This document shows positions 43,938 to 53,755 of a stretch of DNA of 64,000 nt, piece after piece (within the stretch, counting starts at the first letter, position 1; each line of letters begins with the position of its first letter). A model generated the notes under the pieces. That model did not search any database and was not told the origin of the DNA. It worked only from the letters and a program-made list of their open reading frames with translations. The position numbers and the translations under genes were made by a program. Origin of the DNA: Pirellulales bacterium (GTDB lineage Bacteria > Planctomycetota > Planctomycetia > Pirellulales > JAEUIK01); assembly GCA_019694435.1 (NCBI GenBank), contig JAIBBZ010000023.1, positions 1-64,000 on the forward strand, written 5' to 3'.

Positions 43938-44131
43938 TCGGCCGGCGATAGCAAGGCCGCAGCGTCCTAAAATGAGAATCCGGTCTCAGAAGGGGACGGC
44001 TACCGGGCCTGCGCAGCAATCAGTCCGGCCGACCCGGAGACGATTCCCACGGAACCAAAAAACCGCAATCCATTATCCAATAAAGACTTAAACAAATCCA
44101 AGCAGCCTCGAGGGAATTGTTCAAGCGGTTC

Positions 44132-44147
44132 TGGCATCCCCCTTGCG
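44132..44147 (+). promoter_or_regulatory. Candidate sigma-54 promoter of csrA copy 1
   Basis: TGGCATCCCCCTTGCG has the invariant GG-N10-GC core of a sigma-54 (-24/-12) promoter (GG at 44133-44134, GC at 44145-44146). It is 72 nt before the csrA ATG, so transcription would begin near 44158 with a leader of about 60 nt. Two positions differ from the consensus. Confidence 0.5.
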
Positions 44148-44218: not shown

Positions 44219-44446
44219 ATGCTCGTTCTTAGCCGCAAAGTCAATGAGGCAATCCACATCGGCCAAGGGATCACGGTGACCGTGACCCGCATCTCGGGCA
44301 ACCGAGTCACGCTGGGAATCACGGCCCCTGCGAACATGAAGATCATCCGCAGCGAACTGAAGCCCTTTCCCGAAACTCCCTGCAACGCCCCGGTCGTGAC
44401 GACCGAGTTGCCGGCGACGCTCGTCGGTTCGATGCCGCCACGGTAA
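44219..44446 (+). CDS. csrA: Carbon storage regulator CsrA, copy 1
   Basis: A 75-residue RNA-binding post-transcriptional regulator. The whole CsrA core is present: MLVLSRKVNE, HIGQGITVTV, GNRVTLGI and the C-terminal RNA-contact Arg44 in KIIRSEL. CsrA dimers bind GGA motifs in mRNA leaders and control carbon storage, motility and biofilm in other bacteria. The ribosome-binding site reads ACAAGGAGG, which matches the CsrA recognition core (ACARGGA), so the protein may repress its own translation. The core is followed by about 20 residues of Pro/Thr-rich tail. A second, longer copy lies at 52159-52611. Confidence 0.92.
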   Translation: MLVLSRKVNEAIHIGQGITVTVTRISGNRVTLGITAPANMKIIRSELKPFPETPCNAPVVTTELPATLVGSMPPR

Positions 44447-52158: not shown

Positions 52159-52611
52159 TTACAACTGCGCGCCCAACCGCGACGACAACGTGACCGAAAC
52201 GTGCGAGGCCAGCGGAGTGGATCCCGGCCGGCGGTTCGTGCTCGACCACCGGGGCGACGTCGCGGGGGCAAACTCGCTGACCTTTCGTTCGCGGCGCGGC
52301 AACGACAGCCGTCCTGTACCGCGAGCGCTGCCCGCTTTGCCCGCGGGGGCGTCGGCCTGCTCCTGCGCGCCGGCCACCACGAACATCTCGGCCAACTCGC
52401 TCATCTCGATCAGTTCAGACTCGACCTCTTCGGCAACGTCTGCGTCGGTTACCATCATCTCGCGGGGCGGCAGTTCGCTACGGATCACCCGGACATCGCG
52501 CGGCGCCTCGATGCCGAGCTTGATCTGGTTTCCTTTGATTCGCAGCACGGTCACCGTGATCCCGTCGCCGATCTGAATCTTCTCGTTCGCCTTCCGCGAT
52601 AGCACCAACAT
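52159..52611 (-). CDS. csrA: CsrA-like regulator with long C-terminal extension, copy 2
   Basis: A 150-residue protein whose first 60 residues are a complete CsrA (MLVLSRKANE, QIGDGITVTV, GNQIKLGI, Arg44 in RVIRSEL), about 65 % similar by eye to copy 1. The remaining about 90 residues are not CsrA: first an acidic helix (EEVESELIEMSELAEMF), then a Ser/Arg/Pro-rich low-complexity tail. Extended CsrA proteins are rare; the tail may bind a partner or modify RNA binding. AAGGA lies 8 nt before the ATG at 52611. It has a strong sigma-54-like promoter and upstream repeats (see 52664-52680 and 52766-52838). Confidence 0.88.
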   Translation of the reverse strand: MLVLSRKANEKIQIGDGITVTVLRIKGNQIKLGIEAPRDVRVIRSELPPREMMVTDADVAEEVESELIEMSELAEMFVVAGAQEQADAPAGKAGSARGTGRLSLPRRERKVSEFAPATSPRWSSTNRRPGSTPLASHVSVTLSSRLGAQL

Positions 52612-52663
52612 GGCTGGTTCCTTTTTGCCTTGGTTTCACTGTTCCACAGCGTTGAACTCATAG

Positions 52664-52680
52664 AGCACAGCGCGTGCCAA
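52664..52680 (-). promoter_or_regulatory. Candidate sigma-54 promoter of csrA copy 2
   Basis: Read on the minus strand, TTGGCACGCGCTGTGCT matches the consensus TTGGCACR-N4-TTGCW at all but one defined position, with GG (52678-52677) and GC (52666-52665) 10 nt apart. Transcription would start near 52653, leaving a leader of about 42 nt before the csrA ATG. Confidence 0.6.
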
Positions 52681-52765
52681 GGCGCGAGGGGGCCTGCATG
52701 TCGTGACGTAACCGGCAATCTGATTTGCGCTTCGGAAGAACAGCCCGGCGCAGGCTAGCGTGCAA

Positions 52766-52838
52766 GTTTGTACACCAAGTTACAAACCGCTTACAAACGG
52801 CAGAGTTTGCCAGGCCAGCGGCGCCACGCGGTACAAAC
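52766..52838 (-). promoter_or_regulatory. Repeated TACAAAC boxes, possible enhancer-binding sites
   Basis: GTTTGTA (52766-52772) and TACAAAC (52781-52787) form a dyad with an 8-nt spacer; another TACAAAC follows 11 bp on (52792-52798), one helical turn away, and a fourth at 52832-52838. They lie about 90-160 bp upstream of the sigma-54-like promoter, the usual distance for an activator of sigma-54 holoenzyme. Confidence 0.45.
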
Positions 52839-52990
52839 CTGACAGTGCCAACGCGGGGCACCGTCAAGGTTCTCGCAAGCCACCCAGCTTCGCACGCTCG
52901 AACCGTAGCGGGTTGCCAGGAATGCCGTGACGAAGGCTGCCTGGAGTATGGCTGGGGAATGCTGCCTAGAGGATCACCAGCGGATACTGG

Positions 52991-53755
52991 CTAGGACGAA
53001 GAACGGCGCCGGCGGCGGCGCGGCCCTTTGCGACCGGCAATTTCATCGCGGAGGGCGGCCGCGCGTTCGTAGTTTTCCGCCGCCACGGCTGCGGCGAGTT
53101 GTTCTTCCAGGGTCTGCTCGACGCCAAAACGATCGCGAATGGTGCCCTGCATCTCGCGCAGCCGCTGGACCAGCTCGCTCGTGTCGAATTGCTCGGCGTC
53201 CGCGTAACGTTCGAACCACTCGCGCATCCGCTGAATGCCGGAAGTGACCGCTTCGATCGCCTCTTCCGCCAGGCCCTGCTCAACCAGCCCCATCGCTGCA
53301 GCTTGCGTGCGATGGTAGAGGATGAACGGCCGGTACTGCTCGTGCGACATCACCCATTTCTCGTCCTCCGAGCACTCACGGACAAAGTCCATGAACGACA
53401 GATTGTGATCGGCGTCGCGCACCGCCCGGTCGTACTCACGCAGGGCCAGCCAGCAGATGCGGCGGTGATAATACTGGACAAATTCGCGATCGACTTCGGC
53501 GCATTGCTCCTCGTTCAGGCGGAACGCGTCCCCCTCGTGGACGGCCAGTGCCACGAGGTAGTCGTAATACGACTCGGCCCCACCCGGCCGCTGACCGTCG
53601 GGCCGATGATCGGTTTCCAGCTGCAAAACGCCCATTTCGACGCGCATCTGCAGCACTTCGCGGCCATCCTTCGCGCGCACCCGGCGCGCGCTGACCGAAC
53701 CCGGCTGGTAAGGCCAGGAACGCAAGATGTGGTCGATATGGTGTTGCCGTGCCAT
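52991..53755 (-). CDS. UVR-motif protein
   Basis: A 254-residue cytoplasmic protein with a C-terminal UvrB/UvrC-type motif (TLEEQLAAAVAAENYERAAALRDEI), a short coiled coil for protein-protein contact, then an Arg-rich tail. The rest is helical, with many Arg and Glu residues and a conserved-looking HRRICWLALREYDRAV segment; it is not a nuclease. Proteins with this motif include McsA-type adaptors, but the zinc-binding Cys of McsA is not seen. The ATG at 53755 has a normal N-terminus. It stands alone at the end of the large 630-nt intergenic gap. Confidence 0.65.
   Translation of the reverse strand: MARQHHIDHILRSWPYQPGSVSARRVRAKDGREVLQMRVEMGVLQLETDHRPDGQRPGGAESYYDYLVALAVHEGDAFRLNEEQCAEVDREFVQYYHRRICWLALREYDRAVRDADHNLSFMDFVRECSEDEKWVMSHEQYRPFILYHRTQAAAMGLVEQGLAEEAIEAVTSGIQRMREWFERYADAEQFDTSELVQRLREMQGTIRDRFGVEQTLEEQLAAAVAAENYERAAALRDEIAGRKGPRRRRRRSSS

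Follow-up and report, generated by a model that had tools for sequence, protein, structure and literature searches.

Binding sites of the NtrC and NifA type consist of dyad half-sites located about 100 bp 5' of a sigma-54 promoter. The NtrC half-site is GCACC/GGTGC in a 17-bp geometry, and the NifA site is TGT-N10-ACA. In the BarA-UvrY/Csr circuit, the regulator drives antagonist small RNAs. This small-RNA circuit controls CsrA in gammaproteobacteria (see PMC4682653). For planctomycetes, the accessible part of a 2025 article (PMC12316311) reports predicted sigma-54-dependent csrA promoters in Planctomycetia, with reference to Studholme and Dixon (2004, FEMS Microbiol Lett 230:215) for Pirellula sp. 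strain 1. Another article (PMC2754498) describes rpoN in Rhodopirellula baltica, and csrA is not mentioned in the part accessible. Both csrA copies and sigma-54 activators are numerous in planctomycetes, and we found no published pairing of one of these activators with csrA. A published account of a csrA activator site in planctomycetes was not found either, in a search whose coverage left subscription journals mostly outside.

We analysed a window of 64,000 nucleotides from a Pirellulales bacterium. The locus studied here shares with those in PMC12316311 a planctomycete csrA gene behind a -24/-12 element. The accessible part of that article treats promoters only and already predicts sigma-54 control for planctomycete csrA; the present analysis adds a putative activator site together with its consensus, spacing and csrA specificity. 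The 17-bp geometry of NtrC sites is matched by TTACAA-N5-TTGTAA in several relatives, and TGTA-N8-TACA fits the NifA pattern TGT-N10-ACA. However, the half-site here is TTGTAA and not GCACC, and with TTGTAA/GTACA against GCACC/GGTGC an assignment as an NtrC binding site was rejected. The site also differs from NtrC and NifA sites in that it appears to serve essentially one gene in Pirellulales. The likeness to the BarA-UvrY/Csr circuit lies in a signal-responsive regulator that would set CsrA activity, whereas the control proposed here would act on the transcription of csrA itself.

The box cluster and the promoter of csrA copy 2

The features of the two csrA loci in the window are as follows; distances are counted from the -24 T of the csrA copy 2 promoter.

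52159..52611, minus strand: csrA copy 2, an open reading frame and the predicted target gene of the boxes
52665..52680, minus strand: sigma-54 -24/-12 element TTGGCACGCGCTGTGC, 66 bp 5' of the csrA start
52766-52772, minus strand: promoter-proximal box, the GTACAAAC arm of the dyad, at -93; corresponds to the conserved GTACA half-site
52781-52787, plus strand: central box at -106, reading TTGTAA on the csrA strand; the best-conserved half-site
52792-52798, plus strand: upstream half-site at -117, 11 bp (one helical turn) beyond the central box
52832-52838, plus strand: distal box at -157, with no conserved counterpart
44219-44425: csrA copy 1, with a sigma-54-like element CTGGCATCCCCCTTGC at 44131-44146, plus strand

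The product of csrA copy 2 matches the CsrA domain (PF02599) at residues 1-47 of 150 (Pfam, E 7e-23). Past this domain, the protein continues for about 90 residues as a C-terminal extension (window 52159-52450, minus strand). The CsrA proteins of site-bearing relatives also have extensions, and the conservation of the extension is poor.

The element TTGGCACGCGCTGTGC corresponds to TGGCAC-N5-GTGC, with one mismatch to the sigma-54 consensus TGGCAC-N5-TTGC, and its GG (-24) and GC (-12) are separated by 10 bp. When up to two mismatches were allowed, the sigma-54 pattern was found 20 times in the window, against 20.1 expected. Since the pattern is no commoner than chance, the promoter call relies on its conservation: 64 of the 97 csrA upstream regions of the order have the same element at a comparable position. 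No terminator match and no Rfam family was found in the box region.

The sequence-only reading had described four TACAAAC/GTTTGTA boxes at 52766-52838, about 90-160 bp 5' of a sigma-54-like promoter, two of them one helical turn apart and one pair forming a dyad with an 8-nt spacer. All four are exact, are the only ones in the 64-kb window and lie within 73 bp. Moving 5' from TTGGCACGCGCTGTGC along the csrA strand, one meets TACAAAC, 8 nt, two GTTTGTA 11 bp apart and then the fourth box, again GTTTGTA, which bears out the helical turn and the dyad. The TTGTA/TACAA cores begin 157, 117, 106 and 93 bp 5' of the -24 T, which confirms the distance given in that reading. Repeated or dyad half-sites about 80-150 bp 5' of a sigma-54 promoter, as expected of an upstream activating sequence, are thus present at -93, -106 and -117; the role of the distal box is doubtful. 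The GTTTGTA-N8-TACAAAC dyad has a single exact occurrence in the 6,131,874-base genome, and the direct pair GTTTGTA-N0-20-GTTTGTA also occurs just once.

Upstream of csrA copy 1, the TTGTAA site was absent despite the sigma-54-like element. With the site at one copy and not at the other, the two copies probably respond to different activators.

Conservation in Pirellulales and link to csrA

The csrA gene was located in 57 genomes of the order Pirellulales, including that of the window, and the upstream DNA was compared. This gave 97 upstream regions after a duplicate (L127) was dropped; closely related genomes were kept, and 8 of the 97 loci had been selected for csrA and a sigma-54 element, not for the site. 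Of the 64 regions with a good -24/-12 element, 63 had enough sequence. TTGTA or TACAA was found 60-160 bp 5' of -24 in 37 of these 63 promoters, whereas dinucleotide shuffles gave a mean of 9.2 and a maximum of 16 (n=300). In the adjacent interval further upstream, the motif was found in 3/63, and among csrA genes without a sigma-54 element in 2/33. TTGTA at -105 +/-3 was observed in 23 of the 63 promoters, against 0.39 in shuffles (maximum 3). The motif was missing at 60-160 bp in 26/63 promoters, csrA copy 1 of the window included, so the site belongs to some csrA copies only.

The consensus was TTGTAAATTTGTACACT (anchored on 44 sequences; the pool held 75, of which 11 were selected via the site pattern), often with TTACAA/TTGTAA 10-11 bp further upstream. 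What is conserved in the sequences compared is TTGTAA-N4-6-GTACA(C), together with a further half-site on its upstream side. Literal TACAAAC was rejected as the conserved unit, since TTGTAA/GTACAC is what is kept in relatives. Conservation of the boxes of the sequence-only reading therefore concerns TTGTAA/GTACA half-sites with a constant spacing to the promoter, and neither the literal word nor the distal fourth box. In the cultured Blastopirellula marina DSM 3645, TTGTAAGTATGTACACC lies 106 bp 5' of TGGCATGGCAAGTGC upstream of csrA, and a Pirellulales bacterium contig (L380) also carries the site. The site layout was found in none of 19 csrA loci from other groups.

At the same position, TTGCA was observed in 5 of 36 sigma-54-type promoters that have no TTGTA/TACAA, compared to 0.45 in shuffles (maximum 3, n=500). 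Among these five, L021 and L064 retain the UVR-motif gene that adjoins csrA in the window, a gene present at 14 loci of the relatives. Separately, GTAA[GC] stands at -53 to -56 from -24 in 10/78 sigma-54-type csrA promoters, with and without the TTGTAA site; it may perhaps point, weakly, to a second conserved element.

The link to csrA was analysed with the composite pattern TTGTA-N6-9-TACA-N70-100-TGGCA-N7-TGC. With zero mismatches allowed, so that weaker targets may escape, it gave 29 matches in 296 genomes of the order, and a reversed control pattern gave 15. Of the 29, 22 stand 5' of csrA, the window's own among them; the seven that do not look like chance matches. The pair and the dyad are absent elsewhere in the genome, and in the order the combination of site and promoter is essentially a marker of csrA. 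The boxes thus withstand both refuting checks proposed with them, lack of conservation in close relatives and random occurrence across the genome. A csrA-plus-promoter pattern was too strict and matched 13/296 genomes. In 246 genomes across the phylum, the composite gave 25 matches and the control 11, and none of the 22 new ones was found before csrA. Most likely, the site is a csrA-specific upstream activating sequence kept across the order Pirellulales. A distant planctomycete (G307) has three copies (L265, L275, L279) of a repeat TTGTAAAC...TTTTTACACTAATTTGG...AAACGTTTTAAACGG, which are not upstream of csrA.

Proposed mechanism and other explanations

Conservation and csrA specificity support the proposal of the sequence-only reading that enhancer-binding activators would bind here. 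Very probably, the boxes serve the sigma-54-dependent csrA promoter as its upstream activating sequence (enhancer), to which an AAA+ enhancer-binding protein would bind. The Fis-type (HTH_8) domain of this protein would bind the phased TTGTAA/GTACA half-sites about 105 bp from -24, and the bound activator would loop the DNA toward the sigma-54 RNA polymerase. ATP hydrolysis by the activator would then open the polymerase complex, and the product of csrA copy 2 would be made only when the activator is switched on. As the csrA-specific site is also present in the cultured B. marina DSM 3645, the pairing of activator and csrA is directly testable, and the site can be used as a DNA bait for the activator of the global regulator CsrA.

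The boxes might instead be the operator of an ordinary non-AAA+ factor, such as a repressor or a nucleoid protein, acting apart from a sigma-54 activator. The half-sites here are palindromic, like those of many dimeric regulators, and DNA alone cannot tell binding proteins apart. This is nevertheless unlikely: the spacing of about 105 bp between the site and the sigma-54 element is fixed, whereas that between the element and the start codon is more variable, and the site is rare at csrA genes that have no such element. Still less probable is that the boxes are the -35 and -10 of a second, sigma-70-type csrA promoter. TACACT/TATACT-like hexamers do occur at the GTACA half-site in some relatives, but no sigma-70-type match was found in 52600-53000, and the half-sites are inverted and 5-8 bp apart, compared to 16-18 bp for a sigma-70 -35/-10 pair.

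That a short A/T-containing word clustered here by chance is hardly credible, as the sequence-only reading had also argued. A lone TACAAAC is not rare, with a mean of 1.08 boxes expected per shuffled window, and four were reached in 1/100 shuffles. Against chance stand the clustering in 73 bp, the uniqueness of the pair and the dyad in the genome, the positional conservation in many families and the excess of TTGTA near -105 over the shuffles.

Candidate activators of csrA

The genome of the window has 20 PF00158 matches, of which 16 are full-length sigma-54 activators, so rpoN is likely present in this genome. The genome offers activators that combine a sigma-54 interaction domain with an HTH, as expected with an upstream activating sequence; the domains of two were checked with Pfam. 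Reciprocal best hits in all five genomes then scored site-positive were found for 7 of the 16 activators (eight further genomes were compared). Nine activators (L035, L038, L039, L041, L043, L044, L048, L049 and L050) were provisionally set aside, since one or more of the five genomes gave no reciprocal best hit; the genomes were few, and one of them, G014, has a single half-site only.

Co-occurrence with the site was scored on 164 csrA upstream regions, in two of which (L352, L358) the start is one codon off. L047 (G000:C15:49623-51431), with the Pfam domains FHA, GAF, Sigma54_activat and HTH_8, was found in 28 of 30 site-positive genomes and in 13 of 27 site-negative ones (Fisher p = 2e-4, which ignores phylogeny and comes from uneven csrA sampling). 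Two genomes, G023 and G039, count as positive through loci selected by the site pattern (L132, L133) and carry that bias; these loci were outside the TTGTA shuffle test and inside the TTGCA test. In many genomes only some csrA copies were scored (one in G014), so their site-negative status is weak. G002 was scored negative with its contig ending within the site and a half-site pair visible, and L047 was scored absent there though a fragment at 71% is present. In G015, the spacing of the site is too wide for the scoring rule.

L047 was absent from the site-positive genomes G013 (99% complete) and G027. Conversely, it is present in G011, G028 and G050 of one family (f6), where the standard site is absent and two have TTGCA instead. 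By co-occurrence L047 is the leading candidate activator, a tentative lead that has less than an even chance of being right. On a more speculative and rather unlikely reading, the site would be a single-gene enhancer through which this FHA-GAF enhancer-binding protein, in principle reading threonine phosphorylation, turns on csrA, and in some lineages the half-site would have drifted from TTGTAA to TTGCAA. If true, this would tie Ser/Thr-kinase signalling directly to a global post-transcriptional regulator, order-wide.

Co-occurrence cannot discriminate among L036, L037, L040, L045 and L046, which are near-universal; their HTH regions showed no clear divergence in site-negative genomes. Each of these five is a possible csrA activator. 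When the flanks of csrA were searched up to about 1.5 kb, an activator gene was matched only at the site-less locus L027, and no own site was found within the roughly 500 bp scanned before the activator genes. The response-regulator type activator L042 (G000:C31:54225-55619), one of the seven with reciprocal best hits in all five genomes, was rejected as the sole activator: it had no ortholog-level match in the site-positive genomes G001, G005, G037, G039 and G048, and no association with site presence (p = 0.6). Immediately 5' of its start, L042 itself has a good sigma-54 element, TGGCACAGACGTTGCT.
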